Source: Sphingobacteriales bacterium 46-32 (GTDB lineage Bacteria > Bacteroidota > Bacteroidia > Chitinophagales > Chitinophagaceae). From it: a stretch of 64,000 nucleotides of DNA. Where the stretch lies: positions 744,001 through 808,000 of the forward strand of contig MKTY01000019.1 in the NCBI GenBank assembly GCA_001898485.1, read 5' to 3'. The position numbers and the translations under genes are program-made. The notes under the pieces are model-generated. The model did not search any database. It saw only the letters and a program-made list of their open reading frames with translations, and was not told the DNA's origin. Positions 4,762 through 51,954 of this stretch are shown here, piece by piece; within the stretch, counting starts at the first letter, position 1; every line of letters begins with the position of its first letter.

Positions 4762-4828
4762 TTTTTTTTGTTTTAAACGGTTAAAAAATGAGAGGGAAAT
4801 GCTGTTGGAGAAAGGGCATAGCATGACC

Positions 4829-4928
4829 TCCTTCCCTGCGCAGGCATTACCCTGATCAGGTTTTACGGGTATAATCTCAGATTCCTGAAAGGCCTGGCCA
4901 GCACCAGTCAGGAAACACCCCGGGAAAC
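4829..4928 (-). ncRNA. TPP riboswitch (THI element)
   Basis: On the minus strand the leader holds the conserved TPP aptamer blocks in order: GGGGTG (from 4921), CTGAGA, TACCC, ACCTGATC, AGGGTAATGCC, then TGCGCAGGGAA (ending near 4832). Flanking TTCCC and GGGAA can form P1. Downstream, AGGGAA plus ATGCT (4820-4837) can instead pair with AGCATTTCCCT (4793-4803), followed by a T tract (4783-4788). This looks like an expression platform sharing bases with P1, although I cannot fix the polarity. Repression by TPP is the usual outcome for transport genes. Confidence 0.93.
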
Positions 4929-4969
4929 ACTGAAAACTTACAAAGCTTTCACTTAGCAAGAACTGATAG

Positions 4970-6451: not shown

Positions 6452-6523
<72 letters not shown>

Positions 6524-40406: not shown

Positions 40407-42086
40407 GTGATCACATTTGAATCGTTAGGAATCGAGGAAGGCATCCTTCAGTCGATTGCCGCTCTGGGATTTACCCAGCCCACACCCATTCAGGAAAAAG
40501 CAATACCCGTGCTGCTGCAGGGAACCAAGGATTTTGTCGGCCTGGCGCAGACCGGTACCGGCAAAACCGCTGCTTTTGGCCTGCCCCTCCTGCAACTTAT
40601 CCGCAAGGAAGATAAATATCCGCAGGCACTGATTATTTGTCCCACACGGGAACTTTGTCTGCAGATCGCCAGCGATCTCAACGCTTTTAAAAGCCGCAAA
40701 CAACCGGTAACCATTACTGCCGTATATGGTGGTACCTCTATCAGCGAGCAGATCAGGGAACTCAAAAGAGGTTCACATATCGTGGTAGCTACTCCCGGCC
40801 GCCTGATCGACCTTATAGAACGCAAGGCCGTAAACCTGGAGCAGATACACTATGTAGTGCTCGATGAAGCAGATGAAATGCTTAACATGGGTTTTAAAGA
40901 TGATATTGAATTCATCCTTAAAAACACACCCAACCGTCAAAGTACCTGGCTGTTCAGTGCCACCATGCCTTCGGAGATCAAACAGGTGAGCAAACGCTAC
41001 ATGGATAAGCCATTTGAGATTACAATTGGCAAGGTTAATGCCGGCAATGCCAATATCGATCACCAGTATTACATGACCCAGCATGTAAACCGCTATGAAA
41101 CACTCAAGCGGATCATCGATTTTAATCCCGGATTGTACGGTATCATTTTTACCCGTACCAAAGCCGATGCCCAGGACATTACGGAACAACTGATAAGGGA
41201 GGGATATGATATCGAAGCGCTGCATGGCGATCTTACACAGGCACAGCGTGACAAGGTAATGTCGCGTTTCCGCGAAAAAAGCCTGCAACTGCTGATAGCT
41301 ACCGATGTGGCTGCCCGTGGTATTGATGTAACGGGTATTACCCACGTCATCAACTACGAATTGCCCGATGATACCGAAGTTTATACACACCGCAGCGGTC
41401 GTACCGGCCGTGCCGGCAGAAGCGGTATTTCGCTCAGCATCGTTACACCCAAAGAGATTTACCGTATCAGGCAGGTGGAGAAACTGGTCAATACCCGGTT
41501 TCATAAAATGGATATTCCCAGTGGCAAGGATGTATGCCGTAAGCAGTTTTTCTATTTCATCGAAAAAATGCTCAATGCAGATATTAGCAATGGCGAGTAC
41601 GAAGCCTATCTTCCGGTATTGCGCGAAAAGTTTGCCGAAGTAGATAAAGAAGAGATCCTGCAGCGTGTGGCTGCACTCGAGTTCGATCGTTTTCTTAAAT
41701 ACTATGAAAATGCGGCTGATCTCAACCTGCGCGATGACCGCAAAGCTGAGCGGAGTACAAGAGGAGCTGCTGCCGGCGAGCGCGGTGCTGCGCGTGACAC
41801 AAAGGGGCGCAACTTTGGCGGTAGTGGAAATTACCAACGCTTGTTTGTAAACCTCGGCACCAAAGACGGTTTTTACAAAGCCAGCTTCCTGCAATTCATT
41901 CTCGATATGAGTGATCTGCGCAAAGATGTGCTGGGTCGTATTGATATGCGCGAAATGAACAGCTGGGTAGAAGTAGAAGCCGGTGCTGCCAAAAAAATGA
42001 TCCGCGCCATTGATGGTAAAAATTTCAAAGGCCGCAAAATCAGGATGAATGATGCCGTAAGCGGTGGAAGAAGAAAAGAAGGATGA
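40407..42086 (+). CDS. DEAD-box RNA helicase
   Basis: A 559-residue ATP-dependent RNA helicase of the DbpA/CsdA type. It has all the motifs: Q-motif FTQPTPIQEKAIP, I AQTGTGKT, Ia PTRELCLQ, II DEAD in VLDEADEMLNMGF, III SAT in FSATMP, V ARGIDV and VI HRSGRTGRAG. The C-terminal extension (about 400-559) has an Arg/Gly-rich linker (RGAAAGERGAARDTKGRNFG) and a final RRM-like domain resembling DbpA (RLFVNLGTKDGFYKASFLQFIL). It starts with GTG at 40407; no in-frame ATG is upstream or near. Cold-shock or ribosome-assembly helicase is inferred. Confidence 0.92.
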   Translation: MITFESLGIEEGILQSIAALGFTQPTPIQEKAIPVLLQGTKDFVGLAQTGTGKTAAFGLPLLQLIRKEDKYPQALIICPTRELCLQIASDLNAFKSRKQPVTITAVYGGTSISEQIRELKRGSHIVVATPGRLIDLIERKAVNLEQIHYVVLDEADEMLNMGFKDDIEFILKNTPNRQSTWLFSATMPSEIKQVSKRYMDKPFEITIGKVNAGNANIDHQYYMTQHVNRYETLKRIIDFNPGLYGIIFTRTKADAQDITEQLIREGYDIEALHGDLTQAQRDKVMSRFREKSLQLLIATDVAARGIDVTGITHVINYELPDDTEVYTHRSGRTGRAGRSGISLSIVTPKEIYRIRQVEKLVNTRFHKMDIPSGKDVCRKQFFYFIEKMLNADISNGEYEAYLPVLREKFAEVDKEEILQRVAALEFDRFLKYYENAADLNLRDDRKAERSTRGAAAGERGAARDTKGRNFGGSGNYQRLFVNLGTKDGFYKASFLQFILDMSDLRKDVLGRIDMREMNSWVEVEAGAAKKMIRAIDGKNFKGRKIRMNDAVSGGRRKEG

Positions 42087-42093
42087 TATTTTT

Positions 42094-42124
42094 TTTGCTG
42101 ATAGATAATAGCTGATTATATTTG
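42094..42124 (+). promoter_or_regulatory. Consensus promoter of the aromatic amino acid operon
   Basis: TTTG (42094-42097), a 19-base spacer, then TATATTTG (42117-42124), an exact match to the Bacteroidota consensus. The leader peptide ATG is at 42132, so the mRNA would begin at or within a few bases of that ATG. Confidence 0.8.
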
Positions 42125-42131
42125 TTTCATC

Positions 42132-42224
42132 ATGACAATGACAAAAGCATTTTTTGGTTACTTTTTTTATTACTTCTTTTTTGGAAAGAGGCCGGGAATG
42201 CTTTGTTTGAATCTTAGTAAATAA
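42132..42224 (+). CDS. Phe/Tyr-rich leader peptide of the aromatic operon
   Basis: A 30-residue frame, ATG 42132 to TAA 42222-42224. Residues 7-17 read FFGYFFYYFFF, so ten of eleven codons are Phe or Tyr (seven Phe and three Tyr). It starts right after a consensus promoter and stops 18 bases before a strong terminator hairpin, ahead of pheA. This matches the layout of amino-acid leader peptides such as E. coli PheL. Codons 20-22 (AGG CCG GGA) contain the segment able to pair with the terminator's 5' arm. An ATG at codon 3 could also serve as start. The peptide itself probably has no function beyond sensing charged Phe- and Tyr-tRNA. Confidence 0.82.
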   Translation: MTMTKAFFGYFFYYFFFGKRPGMLCLNLSK

Positions 42225-42278
42225 AGAAACTAAATCAGAATAAAGAATCCCGGCCAAAGTGGCCGGGATTCTTGTTTT
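42189..42278 (+). promoter_or_regulatory. Attenuator of the aromatic amino acid operon
   Basis: Terminator stem AAGAATCCCGGCC (42243-42255) / GGCCGGGATTCTT (42261-42273), 13 bp, loop AAAGT, then GTTTT. The upstream segment GGCCGGGA (42190-42197), within the leader peptide, is identical to the first eight bases of the 3' arm and can pair instead with TCCCGGCC (42248-42255), which would disrupt the terminator. A ribosome stalled at the Phe/Tyr codons would leave this segment free; free translation would cover it as the terminator forms. The regulation model is inference. Confidence 0.75.
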
Positions 42279-42310
42279 AATACCTGTAGCAGCAAAACGA
42301 ACAATTGTGT

Positions 42311-43171
42311 ATGGTACAATCAACAAGCGGACAACAGATACCTGAACGGGGTGTGGCTATTCAGGGGTATGAGGGCAGTTTTCACCAGATGGCCGCACAG
42401 CTTTTCTTCGGAAAACAGGTGCCTGTGATCACCTGTGGTACCTTTCGCGATGTGGTACGTATTGCCGGTAACAAACGGGAAAGTGATGGAGGTGTGATGG
42501 CTATTGAAAACTCTATAGCCGGTAGTATCCTCGCCAATTATAACCTGCTGCAAAAAAGTAATCTTCGCATTGTGGGTGAACTCTATCTGCAGATCAGGCA
42601 GCATCTGCTGGTAAACCCTGGTGTGAAACTGGAAGATATCCGCGAAGTACATTCACATACCATGGCCCTGCAGCAGTGTTACGGTTTTCTCGATAAATAC
42701 AACTGGAAGCTGGTGGAGACAGAAGATACAGCACTGAGTGCACGCCACGTACATCAGCACAAAAGCAAATACATTGCCGCTATTGCCAGCAAACTGGCTG
42801 CCGAACTGTTTGATCTCGATGTACTCGCTCCCAATATTCATACACTGAAAAATAATTACACACGGTTTCTGATACTTCGCCGCGAAGATCAGTCTGAAGA
42901 AGTGAGCGGTGCAGATAAAGCTTCTCTTTATTTTCATACCGATCATTCCAAAGGAAGCCTGGCGCGTGTGCTAACGCGTATTGCGGAGGGAGGCATCAAT
43001 CTCAGTAAACTGCAAAGCTTTCCTATACCGGGCTCTGATTTTAAATACAGCTTTCATGCCGATATGGAATTTGAATCGGCTGAACAGTTTTATGAAGTAA
43101 TCAAAAGCATTACACCGCTTACAGAAGATTTGAAAATATATGGTGTATATAAGCGAGGGCAATGGAAGTAA
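42311..43171 (+). CDS. pheA: Prephenate dehydratase
   Basis: A 286-residue enzyme of the Phe branch: prephenate to phenylpyruvate. The catalytic domain opens RGVAIQGYEGSFHQMAAQLFF, and ESDGGVMAIENSIAGSI and NNYTRFLIL are the conserved substrate-binding segments, with the catalytic Thr in NYTRF. The C-terminal ACT domain (about 205-286) has LARVLTRIAEGGINLSKLQSFPI and YSFHADMEF. The usual ESRP regulatory motif reads QSFP, so feedback inhibition by Phe may differ. No chorismate mutase is fused; that activity is in the DAHP synthase protein. It starts at ATG 42311, two codons inside a TTG frame start. Confidence 0.95.
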   Translation: MVQSTSGQQIPERGVAIQGYEGSFHQMAAQLFFGKQVPVITCGTFRDVVRIAGNKRESDGGVMAIENSIAGSILANYNLLQKSNLRIVGELYLQIRQHLLVNPGVKLEDIREVHSHTMALQQCYGFLDKYNWKLVETEDTALSARHVHQHKSKYIAAIASKLAAELFDLDVLAPNIHTLKNNYTRFLILRREDQSEEVSGADKASLYFHTDHSKGSLARVLTRIAEGGINLSKLQSFPIPGSDFKYSFHADMEFESAEQFYEVIKSITPLTEDLKIYGVYKRGQWK

Positions 43172-43205
43172 TAAGTATTAAGTTTTAAGTATTAAGCTAT
43201 AGGTT

Positions 43206-44357
43206 ATGCATGTAAGTAAAAGACTGGATGGAATCGGGGAATATTATTTTTCCAAAAAACTGCGCGAGATCGAAGAGCTCAACCGAACCGGCGAGTCCGT
43301 TATCAACCTGGGTATTGGCAGTCCGGATCTGCCTGCTCATCCTGATGTGATCCGCACCTTACAGGAAAGTGCTTCCCTGCCCAATGCACATGCTTATCAG
43401 TCTTACAAAGGAGTGCTGCAATTGCGCCAGGCAATGAGCGACTGGTACCGCAACTGGTACAACGTATCGCTTAACCCGGATACAGATATTCTGCCATTGC
43501 TCGGCAGTAAAGAAGGGATCATGCATATCTGTATGACCTATCTCAATAAAGGCGATGAGGTGCTGGTGCCTGATCCGGGCTATCCTACGTATAGTGCAGC
43601 CGTAAAACTGGCCGGTGGTAAACCGGTAACCTATAAGTTAAAGGAGAAGAATCATTATGAACCCGATTTTGAGCGGCTGGAGAAAAAAGGATTGCATAAG
43701 GTAAAGCTGATGCTGGTAAATTATCCGCATATGCCTACGGGGCAGGCTGCATCGGAACAGTTGTTTGAAAAGATCGTTGCGTTTGCACGCCGGCATCATA
43801 TACTGGTAGTACATGATAACCCATACAGTTTTATTCTCAACGATCAGCCCATGAGCCTGCTTGCGGTAAAAGGAGCCGGAGGATATGTGCTGGAGCTTAA
43901 TTCGCTGAGCAAGTCGCACAATATGGCTGGCTGGCGTGTGGGGATGCTGTGTGGCGCAGGCGAGCGGATAGCAGAAGTGTTGCGGTTTAAGAGCAATATG
44001 GATAGCGGGATGTTTTTACCCGTACAACTGGCGGCTGCAAAAGCGCTGAGCCTGGGTCGCGAGTGGCATGAGTCGCTCAATGCAGTGTACCGTGAGCGGC
44101 GGGTAAAAGTATTTGAATTACTCCAGGCATTAAACTGCCGCTATTCCCCCAGTCAGACGGGCATGTTTGTATGGGCAGCTATTCCTCCATCTGTAAAAGA
44201 CGGATATGCTTTGAGCGATCAGGTATTGCAGAAGGCACGTGTATTCATTACTCCCGGCGGCATATTTGGTGAGGCAGGAGAAAAATATATCCGTATCAGT
44301 TTATGCAGCCCGGTAGAGACTATAGAAAAGGCGTTCAGCCGCATTGCAGCCATTTAA
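43206..44357 (+). CDS. Class I/II aminotransferase
   Basis: A 383-residue PLP enzyme of the aspartate aminotransferase fold. LGIGSPDLPAHPDVI begins the substrate region, PLLGSKEGIMHICMTYLNKGDEVLVPDPGYPTY is the pyridoxal-phosphate-binding block, and LNSLSKSHNMAGWRVGM contains the PLP Lys. Its place between pheA and tyrA suggests it converts prephenate, phenylpyruvate or 4-hydroxyphenylpyruvate to the amino acid level, but the substrate is not proven by sequence. It lies 34 bases after pheA and 14 before tyrA. The gap upstream holds a short direct repeat (AAGTATTAAG). Confidence 0.92.
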   Translation: MHVSKRLDGIGEYYFSKKLREIEELNRTGESVINLGIGSPDLPAHPDVIRTLQESASLPNAHAYQSYKGVLQLRQAMSDWYRNWYNVSLNPDTDILPLLGSKEGIMHICMTYLNKGDEVLVPDPGYPTYSAAVKLAGGKPVTYKLKEKNHYEPDFERLEKKGLHKVKLMLVNYPHMPTGQAASEQLFEKIVAFARRHHILVVHDNPYSFILNDQPMSLLAVKGAGGYVLELNSLSKSHNMAGWRVGMLCGAGERIAEVLRFKSNMDSGMFLPVQLAAAKALSLGREWHESLNAVYRERRVKVFELLQALNCRYSPSQTGMFVWAAIPPSVKDGYALSDQVLQKARVFITPGGIFGEAGEKYIRISLCSPVETIEKAFSRIAAI

Positions 44358-44371
44358 TAACTGAAACAACT

Positions 44372-45220
44372 ATGGAAAGAAAAACAATAGCGATAGTGGG
44401 AGTGGGACTCATTGGTGGGTCGCTGGCCATACAGTTGCATGAGAAAAAACTCTCATCGCGGCTGATTGGGGTCGATGCCAGCCCGGAACATGCGCGTACC
44501 GCACTGGAGCGTGAACTGGTAGATGAGATACTGCCGCTGCAGGAGGCCATTAAAGAAGCGGATGTGGTCGTGCTGGCCATACCGGTCGATCGTATGACGC
44601 AGGTGCTGCCCGAAGTGCTCGACCTGGCAGACCAGCAGATAGTGCTGGATCTGGGATCTACCAAAGCAACATTAATTGACCGTATCAAACAACATCCCAA
44701 AAGGGGGAGATATGTAGCCACGCATCCCATGTGGGGTACCGAAAACAGCGGACCACAGGCAGCGGTGCGTGGCGCCTATGAAAATAAGGCTGTCATACTT
44801 TGTAATACGCAGGATAGCGATGAGGATGCAGTACAATGGGTAAAGGCCATGTACAAAAAGATAGGTATGCACCTGCTGGAAATGGAAGCTCATGCACATG
44901 ATCTGCATGCGGCTTATGTAAGCCATATTTCACATATCACTTCTTTTGCGCTGGCCAATACAGTGCTGGAAAAAGAGAAGGAGGATCAGGCCATTTTTGA
45001 ACTGGCCAGTGCAGGTTTTGAAAGTACAGTGCGCCTGGCAAAGAGTAATCCTGCCATGTGGGTGCCCATTTTTCTTCAAAACCGCGATAATGTGCTGGAT
45101 GTACTCAACGAGCATATTGCCCAGCTTATCCGCTTCAGAGACAGTATTGAGCAGGGCAATGAGCTGCATTTGCAGCAACTGATGGAAGACGCCAATAAAA
45201 TCAGGCGCATATTGAAATAA
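44372..45220 (+). CDS. tyrA: Prephenate dehydrogenase
   Basis: A 282-residue NAD(P)-dependent enzyme of the Tyr branch. The N-terminal Rossmann motif is TIAIVGVGLIGGSLAIQL. The substrate-binding helices carry THPMWGTENSGPQAA (with the catalytic His) and LHAAYVSHISHITSFALANTV, and RLAKSNPAMWVPIFLQNRDNVL lies in the C-terminal dimerization domain. There is no ACT domain, so no Tyr-binding domain is expected here. The ATG at 44372 is chosen over an extension that would overlap the aminotransferase gene. Confidence 0.94.
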   Translation: MERKTIAIVGVGLIGGSLAIQLHEKKLSSRLIGVDASPEHARTALERELVDEILPLQEAIKEADVVVLAIPVDRMTQVLPEVLDLADQQIVLDLGSTKATLIDRIKQHPKRGRYVATHPMWGTENSGPQAAVRGAYENKAVILCNTQDSDEDAVQWVKAMYKKIGMHLLEMEAHAHDLHAAYVSHISHITSFALANTVLEKEKEDQAIFELASAGFESTVRLAKSNPAMWVPIFLQNRDNVLDVLNEHIAQLIRFRDSIEQGNELHLQQLMEDANKIRRILK

Positions 45221-45297
45221 ATAAATTAACAAAGGCAGTTCTGCTCATACAGAGCTGCTGGCAATAGAATTAATAACTTTACAAACCAAGCGTATAT

Positions 45298-46386
45298 ATG
45301 CAAACAGCAGAACAAACTCAAAAAGACACCGTGCAGGCCGCATGGAATAAAAGGCCGCTGATCATCAGCGGACCTTGCAGTGCAGAAACAGAAGAACAGG
45401 TGCTGGCGACTGCGCAGCGGCTGGCCGCTACCGGCAAAATAAATATGTTGCGTGCAGGCATCTGGAAACCCCGTACCAAACCAGGGATGTTTGAAGGTAT
45501 TGGAGCCAAAGGGTTGCCCTGGCTGCAGCAGGCAAAAAAACTTACCGGCTTACCCACAACTGTAGAAGTTGCTACCGGCAAACAGGTACAGGATGCGCTC
45601 ACGTTTGATGTAGATGTATTGTGGATTGGTGCACGCACTACCGTAAACCCCTTCAGTGTGCAGGAAGTGGCCGATGCACTCCGTGGAGTAGATGTGCCGG
45701 TAATGATCAAAAACCCGATTAATCCTGACCTCGAATTGTGGTCTGGTGCTGTAGAGCGTGTGGCAAGAGCAGGTATTAAACAAATTGGTCTGATACATCG
45801 CGGATTCTCTTCGTACGGTAATACCGAATACCGTAATGCCCCCATGTGGCACCTGGCAATCGAGATGAAACTTAAACATCCCGATATGCCTATCATCAAC
45901 GACCCCAGCCATATCTGCGGACGCCGCGATATTCTGCTGGAGGTAATGCAACGTGCAGTAGATCTCGATTATGATGGACTGATGATAGAAAGCCATATTG
46001 ATCCCGACAATGCGTGGAGTGATGCCAAACAACAGGTGACACCAGAGCGCCTGGCCGAAATGCTGGATACCATCATCTGGCGTAAAGAAGATGTAAACTC
46101 TGCCGAGTATCATGCCGCACTGGAAAAATTGCGTCAGCAAATCAATCACCTCGACGATGAGTTGATGCAAATCCTGGGACAGCGTATGAAGATCGCCGAA
46201 CAGATTGGTCAATACAAGAAGGCAAATAATATCACCATCCTGCAAACCAACCGGTGGAATGAAATTATTGAAAAGGCTTTTGTAAAAGCTGATAAACTGG
46301 GCTTGAGCAAAGAGTTTATTACACGCTACTTTGATGCCGTGCACATGGAAAGCATCAACCACCAAAAGAAAGTACTGGATTCTTAA
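45298..46386 (+). CDS. Bifunctional DAHP synthase / chorismate mutase
   Basis: A 362-residue fusion. Residues about 1-265 are a type I-beta (KDO8P-like) DAHP synthase, the first step of the shikimate pathway: RPLIISGPCSAET, LRAGIWKPRTKPGMFEG, LIHRGFSSYG, INDPSHICGRRD. Residues about 275-362 are an AroQ-type chorismate mutase: LEKLRQQINHLDDELMQILGQRMKIAEQIGQYKKANNITI. DAHP synthase with a C-terminal chorismate mutase is known in Bacteroidota, where the mutase domain can give allosteric control. It puts the entry step and the branch step for Phe/Tyr in one polypeptide. Confidence 0.95.
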   Translation: MQTAEQTQKDTVQAAWNKRPLIISGPCSAETEEQVLATAQRLAATGKINMLRAGIWKPRTKPGMFEGIGAKGLPWLQQAKKLTGLPTTVEVATGKQVQDALTFDVDVLWIGARTTVNPFSVQEVADALRGVDVPVMIKNPINPDLELWSGAVERVARAGIKQIGLIHRGFSSYGNTEYRNAPMWHLAIEMKLKHPDMPIINDPSHICGRRDILLEVMQRAVDLDYDGLMIESHIDPDNAWSDAKQQVTPERLAEMLDTIIWRKEDVNSAEYHAALEKLRQQINHLDDELMQILGQRMKIAEQIGQYKKANNITILQTNRWNEIIEKAFVKADKLGLSKEFITRYFDAVHMESINHQKKVLDS

Positions 46387-46394
46387 ACCCGGAT

Positions 46395-47414
46395 ATGGAA
46401 AAAAAGAACTATCGGTTTTCTGCTGCTGATACCACTTTTTATTTTGCAGCAGGCATCAGTCAGCTGCGTGAGCTTACTGACCCTGCCAGCACCATCCTCA
46501 TCACCGATGAGCATGTGTATGCGGCGCATACCAAACGTTTCAAAGGGTGGAATACCATTGTGCTGAAGCCGGGTGAGGAATTTAAAGTGCAGGCCACGGT
46601 AGACAGTCTTATTGAGCAGCTGATTGAGATGGAAGCAGATCGTAAGACTACCCTCGTAGGTATAGGCGGTGGCGTCATTACAGATATCACCGGTTATGTG
46701 GCTTCTGTGTACATGCGGGGTATCCGGTTTGGTTTTTTGCCTACCACACTGCTGGCCCTGGTAGATGCTTCTATCGGCGGTAAAAACGGTATTGATGTGG
46801 GTGTGTATAAAAATATGGTAGGCGTCATCCGTCAGCCTGCCTTTATTCTGCACGACATGGTGTTTCTGAAAACACTTCCGCAACAGGAGTGGGAGAACGG
46901 CTTTGCTGAGATCATCAAGCATGCCTGTATCCGCGATGCGGCGATGTTTGCCCACCTTGAGGAAAAATCCTTCCGGTCGTTTCAAACCAGTCAGAAACAG
47001 ATCTGTGAGCTGGTGCAGCGCAATGCCGTCTTGAAAGCGCGGGTAGTGAAAAACGATGAGTTTGAAAAAGGGGAACGCCGTTTGCTCAATTTCGGTCATA
47101 CACTTGGGCATGCACTGGAAAACCAGTATGAGCTCATGCATGGCCAGGCCGTGGCAATCGGTATGACTTATGCCTGTCATATTTCAGAACAACTGCGGCG
47201 GTTCCGTAATACCGAACGTGTAGTGCGGGTGATTGAAAAATACGGACTGCCCACTTATGCTGCATTTGATAAAGCGCAGGCTTTTGCGGTCCTGAAGATG
47301 GATAAGAAAAGAGAACGGAAAGAAATGAATTATGTACTGCTCGACAGAATCGGGAAGGGAGTGGTACAGCCCATTGGGCTGCAGCAACTGGAGCAGATTA
47401 TCGAAAAACTTTAA
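46395..47414 (+). CDS. aroB: 3-dehydroquinate synthase
   Basis: A 339-residue NAD+- and metal-dependent enzyme of the shikimate pathway (DAHP to 3-dehydroquinate). GIGGGVITDITGYVASVYMRGIRFGFLPTTLLALVDASIGGKNGIDVG is the NAD-binding and active-site block. Zinc ligands are seen in NGFAEIIKHACI (Glu) and NFGHTLGHALE (two His). The length is typical. It starts 8 bases after the DAHP synthase gene. Confidence 0.97.
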   Translation: MEKKNYRFSAADTTFYFAAGISQLRELTDPASTILITDEHVYAAHTKRFKGWNTIVLKPGEEFKVQATVDSLIEQLIEMEADRKTTLVGIGGGVITDITGYVASVYMRGIRFGFLPTTLLALVDASIGGKNGIDVGVYKNMVGVIRQPAFILHDMVFLKTLPQQEWENGFAEIIKHACIRDAAMFAHLEEKSFRSFQTSQKQICELVQRNAVLKARVVKNDEFEKGERRLLNFGHTLGHALENQYELMHGQAVAIGMTYACHISEQLRRFRNTERVVRVIEKYGLPTYAAFDKAQAFAVLKMDKKRERKEMNYVLLDRIGKGVVQPIGLQQLEQIIEKL

Positions 47415-47442
47415 ACACCGCCCGTTAAGGGCACGGCGAAAT

Positions 47443-48753
47443 ATGAAAGTAATAATCAGTCCTTCTGAATTGAGTGGTGTATTGCAGGCGCCGGCTTCGA
47501 AGAGTTCGATGCAAAGAGCCTGTGCAGCAGCACTTTTGCGGAAAGGACGTACCGTGATTCATAGCCCCGGTCATAGCAACGATGATAAAGCGGCTATTGA
47601 CATTATTCAGAAGCTTGGAGCCTGTGTGGAACATTCTACAGACGCACTCGAAGTAACGAGTGATGGCGTAAATCCCGTGTCGCTGGAAGTGAATTGCGGC
47701 GAAAGCGGATTGAGCATACGGATGTTTACTCCTATCGCTGCTCTGAGTACGCTGCCGGTGCGCATCAACGGATCGGGTAGCCTGGTACAAAGGCCAATGG
47801 ATTTTTTTGATCAGGTATTACCACAACTGGGTGTACGCATCAGCAGTAATGCCGGACGTTTGCCAATGGATATACAGGGGCCGTTACAAGCTCAGAATAT
47901 TACTGTAGACGGATCGCTGAGTTCGCAATTTCTTACCGGTTTGCTGATGGCTTTCAGCACTGCTATCCGTGACCAGCAAATCAGTGAACCCATTACCATT
48001 ACTGTCAATGACCTCAAGAGCAAACCCTATATTGATCTCACGCTTGATGTGATGCAGCAATTTGGTCTGCCCGTGCCGGTACATACCGATCACCGGGAGT
48101 TTACATTTACTTCAGCCGGTGTATTGCCGCAGCCATCGTTGGTAAACTATACAGTGGAGGGCGACTGGAGTGGTGGCGCGTTTCTGCTGGTGGCTGGTGC
48201 AATTGCCGGACCCATTACAGTGCGCGGCCTCGATCCCGGATCTACGCAGGCAGACAAAGCCATACTTACGGCTTTGCAGCGTGCCCATGCCGGAATAGCC
48301 ATTGATGCCAAAGAAATTAAATTGCACCCCGGTCATCTCCATGGCTTCGAACTGGATGCCACAGACTGTCCTGACCTGTTTCCGCCCCTGGTAGCGCTGG
48401 CCGCTTATTGCAATGGGCAATCCCGTATAAAAGGAACCGGACGGCTTACACATAAAGAAAGCAACCGGGCGCTCACACTTCAGGAAGAGTTTGGTAAAAT
48501 GGGTGTCGGTATAGAGTTGAGTGGTGATGAGATGCTCATCAATCCGCCTGTGCGTTTGAAGGGGGCTGCCACACATTCCCGTCACGACCATCGCATAGCC
48601 ATGGCCTGTGCTGTAGCGGCCTTGCGTGCTACGGGCGCTACCGAGATTGCTGAGGCGCAGGCTGTCAATAAATCCTACCCCGATTTTTATAGCGATCTGA
48701 AATCACTCGGTGCACAGATAGATATTCAATCGCTATGGCAGCATCTGCATTGA
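47443..48753 (+). CDS. aroA: 3-phosphoshikimate 1-carboxyvinyltransferase (EPSP synthase)
   Basis: A 436-residue shikimate pathway enzyme that joins phosphoenolpyruvate to shikimate-3-phosphate. LQAPASKSSMQRACAAALL is the N-terminal Lys-containing substrate motif. NCGESGLSIRMFTPIAALS replaces the usual GNAGTAMRP glyphosate-site loop. RLTHKESNRALTLQEEFGKMG and DHRIAMACAVAAL match the second half. The variation in the loop is visible in the sequence; its effect on glyphosate sensitivity is not predictable. The ATG at 47443 gives the normal length; a longer frame from 47332 overlaps aroB. Confidence 0.95.
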   Translation: MKVIISPSELSGVLQAPASKSSMQRACAAALLRKGRTVIHSPGHSNDDKAAIDIIQKLGACVEHSTDALEVTSDGVNPVSLEVNCGESGLSIRMFTPIAALSTLPVRINGSGSLVQRPMDFFDQVLPQLGVRISSNAGRLPMDIQGPLQAQNITVDGSLSSQFLTGLLMAFSTAIRDQQISEPITITVNDLKSKPYIDLTLDVMQQFGLPVPVHTDHREFTFTSAGVLPQPSLVNYTVEGDWSGGAFLLVAGAIAGPITVRGLDPGSTQADKAILTALQRAHAGIAIDAKEIKLHPGHLHGFELDATDCPDLFPPLVALAAYCNGQSRIKGTGRLTHKESNRALTLQEEFGKMGVGIELSGDEMLINPPVRLKGAATHSRHDHRIAMACAVAALRATGATEIAEAQAVNKSYPDFYSDLKSLGAQIDIQSLWQHLH

Positions 48754-48809
48754 TCACGAGTTTAATGTTTAATAATAAGATTACCTTCAGTTAGTACAAA
48801 CCTGCTTAT

Positions 48810-49814
48810 ATGAATTCATTTGGCCGTCTGTTCAGGGTACATATTTTCGGAGAATCGCATGGAGATTGTGTGGGTGTGGTAATCGATGGTTGTGCAGCAG
48901 GCCTGCCATTGACAGCAGCGGATCTGTTGCCTGATCTGGAACGCCGCAAGGGAGGAAAACAAAAAGGAACCACTCCACGCCAGGAGGCTGATTTCCCTTT
49001 TTTCAGAAGTGGTATATTCAATGACCGTACTACCGGGGCGCCGATCATGATTTATTTCGAAAATAACAATACCCGCAGTGCCGATTACGAAAAACAACGA
49101 AGCTTTCCACGCCCGGGCCATGCAGATATGGTGGCTCATCAAAAATATGGCGGTAATGAAGATTACCGCGGGGGAGGCCATTTCAGTGCGCGGCTCACTA
49201 CAGGACTGGTAGCTGCAGGCGGAATTGCCAAAAAACTAATGCAGGGGATTACTATAGACGCCCTTGTGACAGAAGCTGGCGGGGAGACGGATGTAGAAAA
49301 GGGATTACAAAAAGCCATTGAGGCTAAAGATTCGATTGGCGGCATTGTAGAATGCAGGGTTAAGGGACTGCCTGCCGGTTTAGGTGAACCTTTTTTTGAC
49401 TCCGTAGAATCATTGATTGCACATATGGCCTTTGCCATTCCGGCAGTGAAAGGGATAGAATTCGGATCCGGTTTTGCAGCCGCACGCATGTTTGGCTCAG
49501 CGCACAACGATGCAATAGAAAACATGGAGGGCAAAACCAGTACCAACCATGCCGGCGGTATTGTAGGCGGCATCAGCAATGGCAATGAGCTCGTGTTCAG
49601 GATTGCCATCAAACCCACCGCATCTACGCCAAAAGAACAGTTCAGCCTCAACTGGGATTCCGGCCAGATGGAGCAGTTTGCCGTACGTGGACGTCACGAT
49701 CTCTGTGTAGCATTACGGGCTCCCGTGATTCTCGAAGCCTGTACGGCCCTTGTACTGGCCGATCTGCTGATGCTCGAAGGCAAATTGCCCCGTGTATATT
49801 CATCTGCTCATTAA
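48810..49814 (+). CDS. aroC: Chorismate synthase
   Basis: A 334-residue FMN-dependent enzyme completing the shikimate pathway (EPSP to chorismate). Motifs: GRLFRVHIFGESHGDCVGVVIDGCAAGLPL at the N terminus, RSFPRPGHADMVAHQKYGGNEDYRGGGHFSARLT for FMN and substrate contacts, and RGRHDLCVALRAPVILEACTALVLADLLML at the C terminus. It is somewhat shorter than the E. coli enzyme. It closes the aromatic block of the operon. Confidence 0.97.
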   Translation: MNSFGRLFRVHIFGESHGDCVGVVIDGCAAGLPLTAADLLPDLERRKGGKQKGTTPRQEADFPFFRSGIFNDRTTGAPIMIYFENNNTRSADYEKQRSFPRPGHADMVAHQKYGGNEDYRGGGHFSARLTTGLVAAGGIAKKLMQGITIDALVTEAGGETDVEKGLQKAIEAKDSIGGIVECRVKGLPAGLGEPFFDSVESLIAHMAFAIPAVKGIEFGSGFAAARMFGSAHNDAIENMEGKTSTNHAGGIVGGISNGNELVFRIAIKPTASTPKEQFSLNWDSGQMEQFAVRGRHDLCVALRAPVILEACTALVLADLLMLEGKLPRVYSSAH

Positions 49815-49826
49815 TCAATCGTGTCT

Positions 49827-50126
49827 ATGGCACTTATCTATCATATTACTACTGCTACCACATGGGCCGAAGCGCTGAAAGCCGGACAATATGAAGCACC
49901 ATCGCTGCAGTCCGAAGGGTTTATCCATAATTGCGAAGAACGCCAGGTAGGGGCTATTCTGGACCGTTTTTATGCGGATCAGCATGACCTGGTCAAACTC
50001 ATTATTGACACAGACAAACTCAGCTCATCCTTAGTATATGAGTGGTCTGCCTCTCTGCAGGATACATTTCCTCATATTTATGGACCTATTAATCTCGATG
50101 CCGTCGTGGAAGCCGTAGCTCTTTAA
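49827..50126 (+). CDS. DUF952 family protein
   Basis: A 99-residue cytoplasmic protein. ALIYHITTATTWAEALKAGQYEAPSLQSEGFIHNCEERQVGAILDRFY matches the DUF952 start (IYHIT...W..A...G.Y...S...EGFIH), and VYEWSASLQDTFPHIYGPIN its end. The fold resembles ADP-ribosyltransferase-like proteins, but an activity is not established. It follows aroC by 12 bases and is probably the last gene of the operon; it has no evident metabolic tie. A GTG at 49821 is an alternative start. Confidence 0.85.
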   Translation: MALIYHITTATTWAEALKAGQYEAPSLQSEGFIHNCEERQVGAILDRFYADQHDLVKLIIDTDKLSSSLVYEWSASLQDTFPHIYGPINLDAVVEAVAL

Positions 50127-50127
50127 C

Positions 50128-50168
50128 AAAAAAAGCAAGCCTGCATGCAACAGTTGGGCTTTTTTCCT
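50128..50168 (+). terminator. Probable terminator of the aromatic operon
   Basis: AAAAAAGC (50129-50136) / GCTTTTTT (50158-50165) with a 21-base interior, part of which can pair weakly, followed by CCTCTTCC. It is of moderate strength. Confidence 0.5.
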
Positions 50169-50262
50169 CTTCCTGTAACTGGCTGCACTATTTCAGCCCG
50201 GTATTTGTTATTTTGCTGTACCTAATGAGTGCAGGAGCTATTTATTCTATGTAATTCACTAT

Positions 50263-51954
50263 ATGCGAAGAGTCGGACTATTGATCAAAAATGCCAGTGG
50301 TATTGGCTTATTATGCCTGATGGCAGCCTGTGGTAATGGCGATAAACCTGCCACGCGCGATCTGGTGCAATCACCGGATGAGCTGGATCCGAAAACAACC
50401 GAGAATATCCGGCAATTGCTGGACTATGCCGGCACACATAAACAATTGCCCGACGATTCGGCGCTGCTGTTTGACAATGCCCTGCTGAGCAAGGCCTATC
50501 AGGAGCGGGAGTATAAACCCATCTGGGGCAGCCGGGAAGAATGGCAGCCCCTGGCAGATTCTCTTTTTGGTTTTTTACAAACGGCCAAATGGTATGGTCT
50601 GTTTCCTGAAGACTATCATTTTCCCAGGCTATCTTCTATTCGCCAGCGGATTCTGGCAGATTCTGCCCGCAAAGGTGACCGCACAGATGCCGTACTCTGG
50701 GCCAGGGCCGATATCATGCTTACAGATGCTTTTGTACATATAATTAAGGACCTGAAGCTGGGCCGGTTGCCACTTGACAGTATTTCTGCCCGGAAAGACT
50801 CGGTACTGCCGGCAGACTTTTACCTGCAGCGCCTTTCTGCTGCTCGTGGCAAGCAATCGCTGGCGCTGGCGTTTTACGGTTTGGAGCCCAGGCATGAAGG
50901 ATACCGCAGATTGAAGGCGGCAATACCGGCATTTCTCGAGAATGCCAGCGACAGGGTTTACACCCGGGTACCATCGCCCAAAGACCCCGGATTTAAACAG
51001 GCATTGCAGACCCGTCTCTATGAGGGGGGCTACCTCGATCAGGATAGCATAACCGCTGATTCTGCTACCCTGGTAAAGGCTGTCAAAAAGTTTCAGGAGG
51101 AGCATAATATTGCTGTTGATGGCAGGGTGGGAGAGGGTACCGTGCGGATATTAAATACAAACGATAAAGACCGGTTCGTAAATATTGCCATAACCCTTGA
51201 CCGGTACAAGCACCTCCCCGACAGTATGCCCGGGCGTTATGTATGGGTAAATATTCCCGGTTATTACATGTTGCTGCACCAGGGAGATTCGATCAATGTG
51301 GAATCGAAAATTATCTGTGGCAAACCGGCAACCCGCACGCCTTTGCTCACGAGCGCCATATCTGAACTCATCACCTATCCGCAGTGGACGGTTCCTACCA
51401 GTATAATTGCCAAAGAAATATTGCCGGCTGTAAAACGCGATCCCGGTTACCTGGCTAAAAAAGGGTTTAGTCTGATCAATGGTAAAGGCGATGAAGTGGA
51501 TCCCTTTACTGTAGAGTGGAGCAAGTACAGCAAAGGGATTCCTTACAAAGTGGTTCAGGGCAGTGGCGATGCCAATGCCCTCGGGATACTTAAATTCAAT
51601 TTTCCCAACAAATATGCCGTATACCTGCATGATACCAACCAACGCTATCTGTTTGCCCAGGCCATGCGCTCACTGAGTCACGGTTGTGTGCGGGTGCAGT
51701 CCTGGGAAAAGCTGGCTTACAGCATTATACGCTATGATTATAAATCCAGGGAGGATGGCAAACCGTCGGCAGTGGAAGATTCTCTCAATAGTTGGTTGAA
51801 ACGCAAGGAGAAACATCATATTACGGTTAAAAACAGGCTGCCTGTATTTATCCGTTACTTTACCTGCGAGTGGCGAAACAACCGGCTTCTTTTCTATGAT
51901 GACATCTATGGAGAAGACCGGCTGGCGCGGCGTCAGTATTTTGCCGGAAAATAG
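50263..51954 (+). CDS. YcbB-like L,D-transpeptidase lipoprotein
   Basis: A 563-residue predicted lipoprotein (CLMAACG, Cys23). The N-terminal 60-250 is helical with a scaffold-like region as in YcbB, then a peptidoglycan-binding helix bundle (about 245-300: LQTRLYEGGYLDQDSITADSATLVKAVKKFQEEHNIAVDGRVGEGTVRIL), then the YkuD domain (about 315-520). The catalytic motif is SHGCVRV with Cys475 and the His two residues before it. L,D-transpeptidases form 3-3 cross-links in peptidoglycan or attach lipoproteins. It stands alone. Confidence 0.92.
   Translation: MRRVGLLIKNASGIGLLCLMAACGNGDKPATRDLVQSPDELDPKTTENIRQLLDYAGTHKQLPDDSALLFDNALLSKAYQEREYKPIWGSREEWQPLADSLFGFLQTAKWYGLFPEDYHFPRLSSIRQRILADSARKGDRTDAVLWARADIMLTDAFVHIIKDLKLGRLPLDSISARKDSVLPADFYLQRLSAARGKQSLALAFYGLEPRHEGYRRLKAAIPAFLENASDRVYTRVPSPKDPGFKQALQTRLYEGGYLDQDSITADSATLVKAVKKFQEEHNIAVDGRVGEGTVRILNTNDKDRFVNIAITLDRYKHLPDSMPGRYVWVNIPGYYMLLHQGDSINVESKIICGKPATRTPLLTSAISELITYPQWTVPTSIIAKEILPAVKRDPGYLAKKGFSLINGKGDEVDPFTVEWSKYSKGIPYKVVQGSGDANALGILKFNFPNKYAVYLHDTNQRYLFAQAMRSLSHGCVRVQSWEKLAYSIIRYDYKSREDGKPSAVEDSLNSWLKRKEKHHITVKNRLPVFIRYFTCEWRNNRLLFYDDIYGEDRLARRQYFAGK

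Follow-up and report, generated by a model that had tools for sequence, protein, structure and literature searches.

A candidate Phe/Tyr leader-peptide attenuator ahead of an aromatic amino acid operon in Chitinophagaceae

The enterobacterial leader peptide pheL contains Phe codons and is not known to contain Tyr codons. Attenuators of the his, trp, leu, thr, ilv, and pheA operons of enterobacteria have long been known (PMC1183508). Outside Proteobacteria and Actinobacteria, a passage of a 2010 survey counts no leader-peptide system before its own case from Firmicutes (PMC2965389). AroR of C. glutamicum, taken here from its description in a review, is a Phe-Tyr-Phe leader of the aroF (DAHP synthase) operon that acts by ribosome stalling; Phe limitation acts through it and Tyr availability had no effect, so Tyr codons in a leader need not sense Tyr (PMC11802643). 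For Bacteroidota, passages of a study on Flavobacterium psychrophilum mention leader-peptide attenuation before amino-acid operons and, in Flavobacteriaceae, a structured 5′ element upstream of pheA that matches no Rfam family (PMC9723704); these passages concern Flavobacteriaceae only and describe neither codons nor pairing regions. The Bacteroid-trp motif (RF01692), named for trp, likewise appears in the passage cited as a candidate cis-regulatory RNA of Bacteroidetes (PMC2864571).

Here, we describe a locus in a 64,000-nucleotide stretch of DNA from Sphingobacteriales bacterium 46-32, a member of the Chitinophagaceae (the whole stretch is called the window below). As in the pheL-pheA arrangement, a Phe-containing leader peptide and a terminator precede pheA. 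Unlike in pheL-pheA, Tyr is always mixed in, the operon includes the common pathway, and the host belongs to Bacteroidota. The leader resembles AroR, as reviewed, in mixing Phe with Tyr ahead of an operon that includes DAHP synthase, but comes from a different phylum and has ten aromatic residues where the review passage names three (PMC11802643). An initial annotation had called a combined Phe and Tyr sensor unfamiliar in Bacteroidota; it is less so given the attenuation and the pheA 5′ element mentioned for Flavobacterium psychrophilum in passages of PMC9723704. Beyond the passages cited, our literature search found no description of a Phe/Tyr leader in Bacteroidota, and a first description is not claimed. 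The attenuator reading is well supported and of a kind already known, with the double Phe/Tyr input as its one potentially new trait. A 2010 survey by Lopatovskaya et al. may list some such leaders.

Comparison with Rfam release 15 gave no match above threshold for the leader element. The best resemblance was to Phe_leader (RF01859), which scored 39.3 bits in the window against a gathering threshold of 55; elsewhere it scored 40.9, 34.2, and 31.5 bits in three of the 20 loci searched and 30.2 bits in L022. Every listed score being under 55, membership of Phe_leader was rejected as tested. Bacteroid-trp was also rejected, having no match in the window at gathering and none at the leader up to E 10, as was a T-box, since none of the 28 Rfam matches listed there at E 10 or better was a T-box.

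A DEAD-box helicase gene (40407-42086) precedes the locus and pheA follows it; all features described here for the leader and the operon are on the + strand. A promoter of the Bacteroidota type occupies positions 42094-42124 (TTTG at 42094-42097, N19, and TATATTTG at 42117-42124); a pattern scan recovered this same site as one of five matches in the window, against a shuffle mean of 1.57. The predicted transcription start is near 42129, three bases 5′ of the first ATG. The leader ORF (42132-42224) has 30 codons plus a stop, with an ATG at 42132, a further in-frame ATG at 42138, and TAA at 42222-42224; its translation is MTMTKAFFGYFFYYFFFGKRPGMLCLNLSK. Codons 7-17 (42150-42182) form a run of seven Phe (codons 7, 8, 11, 12, 15, 16, and 17), three Tyr (codons 10, 13, and 14), and one Gly, which would be the regulatory codons. 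An intrinsic terminator, the putative attenuator, follows at 42243-42278, starting 18 bases 3′ of the leader stop, with arms AAGAATCCCGGCC (42243-42255) and GGCCGGGATTCTT (42261-42273) and a T tract that extends to 42278; its stem is the longest among 12 terminator-like sites in 42000-50400. Within the ORF, GGCCGGGA at 42190-42197 is identical to 42261-42268, the start of the terminator 3′ arm. The promoter, the 30-codon frame with ten Phe/Tyr codons, the 13-bp terminator, and the 8-base repeat had all been reported by the initial annotation, and each was read again at these positions. The leader stretch has a folding z-score of -5.35, which none of 200 shuffles equalled.

Seven genes follow. 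The first is pheA (prephenate dehydratase, 42311-43171, with ATG 42311 taken as the start), which matches NCBIfam PRK11898 at E 1.6e-56, under the curated cut-off. It is followed by an aminotransferase gene (43206-44357), whose best profile is LL-diaminopimelate aminotransferase, under cut-off, and whose gene context points to an aromatic role. Next come tyrA (prephenate dehydrogenase, 44372-45220; NCBIfam PRK08507 at 366 bits, cut-off 295) and a gene for DAHP synthase with a C-terminal chorismate mutase domain (45298-46386; profiles under curated cut-offs). The last three, each above its cut-off, are aroB (3-dehydroquinate synthase, 46395-47414; TIGR01357), aroA (EPSP synthase, 47443-48753; TIGR01356), and aroC (chorismate synthase, 48810-49814; TIGR00033). 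From the attenuator to the end of aroC, no terminator-like site is listed on the + strand. The next one on that strand is a weak site of five pairs at 49821, 3′ of aroC; the seven genes therefore look like one unit, and the distal genes would be under attenuator control.

The locus has a short ORF with a codon run for an operon product, and its sequence provides an intrinsic terminator between that ORF and the first structural gene as well as a mutually exclusive antiterminator that uses a segment of the ORF. We propose, at a probability of roughly 90%, that ribosome-mediated attenuation of transcription at this site controls the aromatic operon pheA-aminotransferase-tyrA-DAHP synthase/chorismate mutase-aroB-aroA-aroC. 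Four RNA regions would take part. Region 1 (AAAGCAT, 42144-42150) faces ATGCTTT at 42198-42204, and in the minimum-energy fold the RNA from 42144 onwards pairs with 42182-42204 in a hairpin that spans 42144-42204. Region 2 (42190-42210; GGCCGGGA, CUUU, and UUUGA) is the 5′ side of the antiterminator. Region 3 (UCAGAAUAAAGAAUCCCGGCC, 42235-42255) can pair with region 2 or, through its last 13 bases, with region 4, the terminator 3′ arm.

In the proposed mechanism, RNA polymerase would start near 42129 with a ribosome translating the leader close behind. When charged Phe-tRNA is scarce, and by extension charged Tyr-tRNA, the ribosome would stall in codons 7-16 and cover region 1, so that region 2 stays available for pairing when region 3 emerges; the antiterminator so formed would block the terminator, and the operon would be transcribed. 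When both charged tRNAs are plentiful, the ribosome would reach the stop codon and come to rest over regions 2 and 3 or between them; pairing of region 3 with region 4 would follow, and transcription would end near 42278. In the absence of a stalled ribosome, a further hairpin of regions 1 and 2 may tie up region 2. That the ribosome stalls, in which order the structures switch, what region 1 does, that Tyr is sensed, and that the distal genes are controlled are parts of the model that we infer.

To follow the Phe/Tyr run in relatives, as the initial annotation had proposed, we assembled 100 pheA loci, of which 20 came from a genome-collection search (20 of 39 genomes matched) and the rest were the best 80 of 199 contig loci. 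The window's own locus (L001) is counted among them, and the 80 contigs are assigned to a family by record title only, many titles giving Chitinophagaceae. A similar leader was found in 97 of the 100 loci: an ORF in which 6-11 of 12 codons encode Phe or Tyr, then a terminator. It is missing from L018, L019, and L020, which are also the sole representatives of the order's other families among the 20 genome-collection loci. When the terminator cut-off was fixed, 96 of the 100 loci had the F/Y-rich ORF plus terminator, a combination present in none of 981 control segments taken from other parts of these loci and in one of 1000 dinucleotide shuffles. The F/Y-rich ORF by itself, defined in this control scan by 6 or more Phe/Tyr in 12 codons, occurred in 35 of the 981 control segments and 38 of the 1000 shuffles.

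Five of the 97 positive loci were removed as their first 80 bases duplicate another leader, which left 92 distinct leaders; three pairs of loci (L002/L021, L003/L037, and L005/L058) probably represent the same genome in two collections. The runs of the 92 leaders hold 484 Phe, 332 Tyr, and no Leu. Both Phe and Tyr are present in every one of the 92, with 2-6 Tyr per run; the first Tyr codon often precedes the first Phe, and the commonest pattern (26 of 92) is Phe 10, Tyr 7. An untranslated T-rich tract is expected to contain TTA and TTG. Since the U-richness here takes the form of TTY/TAY codons with no Leu, the run is probably translated; that the runs lack stop codons is so by construction and carries no evidential weight. 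Trp accounts for 15 of the 2496 residues of the 92 leaders, no obvious enrichment for a third sensed residue, and is present in 26 of the 65 clear leader ORFs of the phylum survey described below.

We then asked how well the proposed pairings are kept, and compared native with species-swapped pairing energies over the 92 distinct leaders (20,000 permutations). Native pairing was stronger for 2:3 (-16.2 vs -14.9, z -8.4), 1:2 (-18.1 vs -16.0, z -7.0), and 3:4 (-20.2 vs -16.2, z -17.7), with none of 20,000 permutations as good in any of the three. Of the control pairings, 1:3 gave z +0.5, and 1:4, which is not fully flat, gave z -2.5 (153 of 20,000). For alignment A1, five reversed loci of the 92 were left unused, thinning at 88% gave 74, and L012, L013, L053, and L079 were removed by hand as divergent, giving a final 70 rows. 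This hand removal favours the covariation counts for 2:3, 1:2, and 3:4. In A1, the antiterminator proved longer than first noted, with GGCCGGGA facing UCCCGGCC, CUUU facing AAAG, and UGUUGA facing UCAACA. Its 2:3 helix was 86.9% paired, with a covariation of 0.145 vs 0.097 for shuffled alignments (0 of 500 as high) and at most 0.064 when slid; column pair 89/119, for example, was G-C in 43 of the 70 rows, A-U in 18, and U-A in 2, with 7 rows unpaired. The 3:4 helix was 94.3% paired, with a covariation of 0.266 vs 0.162 (0 of 500) and at most 0.152 when slid. The antiterminator (2:3) and terminator (3:4) pairs covary, both in the swap test and in the A1 counts, as the initial annotation had suggested checking. 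On a PheA protein tree, at least 5 changes fell on the G-C/A-U pair and at least 21 on a terminator pair; sign tests on independent pairs were too small to discriminate. The leader-peptide attenuator reading of the initial annotation is supported by the conserved Phe/Tyr run, by the covariation of 2:3 and 3:4, and by the stretch free of + strand terminator-like sites up to the aroC end.

Region 1 gave a less uniform picture. In A1, the 1:2 helix was 71.7% paired with a covariation of 0.126, which 30 of 500 shuffles equalled or exceeded and which slid helices surpassed (up to 0.144). Measured against 100 synonymous versions of each leader, the codons of region 2 pair with region 3 better than the mean in 91 of 92 leaders, and 1:2 pairing lies above the mean in 81 of 92. 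The window's leader itself pairs 1:2 no better than synonymous codons do (z 0.16). Support for the 1:2 helix across the family is weaker than for 2:3 and 3:4, and mixed. The initial annotation had seen no clear region 1; a partner does exist at 42144-42150 and relatives tend to keep its pairing, but the pairing of the window's own copy is unexceptional.

The stretch after the run behaves differently from the run itself. The conserved CUUUUGUU of region 2 is read in frame 0 in 57 leaders, frame 2 in 21, and frame 1 in 2, with 12 unmatched. Frame 0 leaders are mostly PGMLLL-like, and frame 2 leaders end in C, stop; the stop lies 7 bases from the motif start, within region 2, in frame 2, and 18 bases on in 45 of the 57 frame 0 leaders. 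Because CUUUUGUU is read in differing frames, it is kept as RNA, the peptide sequence there not being kept; the run, for its part, is kept as codons. A ribosome at the stop codon would hold regions 2 and 3 apart in either frame. In several A1 rows (L057, L062, L014, and others), a single-base shift after the run alters frame and stop, and the region 2 RNA is retained.

We also modelled the ribosome as a footprint, hiding the RNA beneath it and folding the RNA downstream. With the ribosome at the first Phe, the antiterminator captured region 3 at P > 0.5 in 90 of the 92 leaders; the count was 91 of 92 at the first Tyr and 0 of 92 at the stop codon, the last result assuming that pairing cannot cross a ribosome. 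In the window's leader, the antiterminator probability stayed near 0.86 through codon 15 of 30, fell to 0.57 at codon 16 and 0.23 at codon 17, and was 0.00-0.01 later. Under this model's assumptions, a ribosome past the run would block 2:3. With no ribosome at all, the antiterminator formed in 88 of 92 leaders, so equilibrium folding does not show region 1 as a default-off hairpin.

To look beyond the family, we searched with a covariance model (R1), which found the window's leader in its own genome at E 9.5e-24 (next match 2.4e-3). R1 matches turned up in 39 of 149 genomes searched from the order (E 0.001) and in 56 of 198 from the phylum (E 0.01). Among 44 R1 loci inspected, with the following genes recognised by eye from the N-terminal residues, 28 lie before pheA, 2 before DAHP synthase, and 14 before other or unrecognised genes. 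In the two DAHP synthase cases (L152 and L153), a Phe/Tyr leader precedes that gene in place of pheA; the first operon gene seems to change and the leader stays. We surveyed 133 pheA upstream regions, not a random sample but the best matches plus about one per genus of the rest, drawn from 172 and 66 matching genomes. These comprised 65 clear leaders from 11 families of the phylum, 4 weak ones, and 64 with none; one of the 'none' rows (L211) is void, having been cut at the wrong place, and another (L220) is 'none' by terminator score, yet its ORF has 10 Phe/Tyr in 12. Rows of the window's own family were clear in 13 of 15 cases, weak in one, and none in one. By a crude N-terminal signature, all 65 clear leaders go with one pheA type (65 of 89 rows, and 0 of 44 others, L211 among these). 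The same pheA type has no detectable leader in L222, L223, L226, the f3 rows, and most f12 rows, where it may have been lost, missed, or moved; the genome of L226 has a leader before DAHP synthase instead (L153).

Terminators differ widely among the 52 leaders outside the family, and in these the native 2:3 energy was -14.5 vs -9.6 kcal/mol when swapped (z -13.1), with -9.4 for between-family and -9.9 for within-family swaps. Outside the family, the leader segment (region 2) changes in step with the terminator sequence.

Readings in which no attenuator operates fit these results poorly. The hairpin could be an ordinary terminator of the upstream helicase gene (40407-42086), starting about 156 bases past its stop codon, and the frame a chance ORF, as T-rich DNA readily gives Phe codons (35 of 981 controls have an F/Y-rich ORF). 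A Bacteroidota-type promoter intervenes between helicase and leader, though, and the combination of ORF and terminator is kept in 97 of 100 loci against 0 of 981 and 1 of 1000 in controls, with no Leu codons in 92 runs and with 2:3 covariation across families. This conservation, the controls, and the covariation largely refute the helicase-terminator reading, which we consider the least probable of all. Scarcely better placed is a true small protein gene that has its own terminator and is kept for its product, an aromatic membrane peptide; the hydrophobicity of the F/Y-rich peptide and the conservation of its run speak for this. We rejected it on what follows the run, where the same RNA falls in three reading frames (57, 21, and 2 leaders) and codon choice follows region 3 pairing (91 of 92 leaders).

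The closer contest concerns what the attenuator senses. The same attenuator might respond to Phe only, its Tyr codons being tolerated aromatic filler with no effect on readthrough. A single mutation turns TTT into TAT, the operon begins with pheA, a gene of the Phe branch, and AroR with its Phe-Tyr-Phe leader responds to Phe limitation and not to Tyr, according to the review passage (PMC11802643). Against this, Tyr never drops out, with 2-6 per run in all 92 family leaders and a presence in all 65 clear phylum leaders; the first Tyr often comes before the first Phe, and the footprint model frees region 2 at either; and tyrA lies within the operon. We regard Phe-only sensing as a tentative alternative, on balance doubtful. 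The combined Phe plus Tyr sensor proposed by the initial annotation stands as to its codons, both residues occurring in 92 of 92 family and 65 of 65 phylum leaders, and is conjectural as to Tyr sensing. We lean towards an ancient two-input attenuator of Bacteroidota, in effect an OR gate, in which a shortage of charged Phe-tRNA or of charged Tyr-tRNA would by itself open the whole shikimate/Phe/Tyr operon. It would have been kept despite terminator turnover and frame changes, and would be near-leaderless in the window's family.

That last trait is predicted from the distance between promoter and start codon. An exact TAnnTTTG box lies at most 60 bases upstream of the leader start in 76 of the 92 family leaders vs 6 of 158 control 60-base windows, and 69 of these 76 boxes are 4-10 bases from the leader start codon, as chosen by script. 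Taking the box to lie at -12 to -5, from a passage of PMC9723704, the predicted 5′ UTR would be 0-6 bases in the family and, in the window, 3 bases if the first ATG is used or 9 if the second is. For comparison, 3.7% of B. thetaiotaomicron mRNAs have a 5′ UTR under 10 bases according to a passage of PMC7366714, and 5.5% of F. psychrophilum mRNAs are leaderless according to one of PMC9723704. Outside the family, 18 of the 52 leaders have an exact box. We rejected a near-leaderless start as a general trait, since 15 of these 18 boxes are at least 17 bases away; it fits the window's family but not most others.

With control of this kind, the large phylum Bacteroidota would have a conserved and testable means of regulating aromatic amino-acid synthesis without a transcription factor. 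It offers a natural case for asking if one leader senses two amino acids, a question that AroR, as reviewed, answered with no for Tyr (PMC11802643). The predicted near-leaderless start would be useful for studying ribosome-polymerase coupling in a phylum described as having no Shine-Dalgarno sequences.

The same genome holds two further candidate leaders. On contig C8 (L299), an ORF ending MKQQFNTIQWWWHTQSPGLL (WWW), 173 to 89 bases upstream of where a Chorismate_bind gene presumably starts, is followed by a terminator and is a probable Trp leader. On contig C19 (L300), an ORF with MQLYIHIHHHHLALSGVGSDGIM (HIHHHH) lies 130 to 37 bases before the presumed hisG start; it is a probable His leader, for which the scan found no terminator. 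Nothing clear was seen in this genome before two homoserine dehydrogenase genes and ilvD. Given the WWW and HIHHHH ORFs, the organism may use the same principle for Trp and His. Elsewhere in the window, Rfam matches above gathering mark a TPP riboswitch at 4815-4932 on the - strand and a tRNA gene at 6452-6523 on the + strand.
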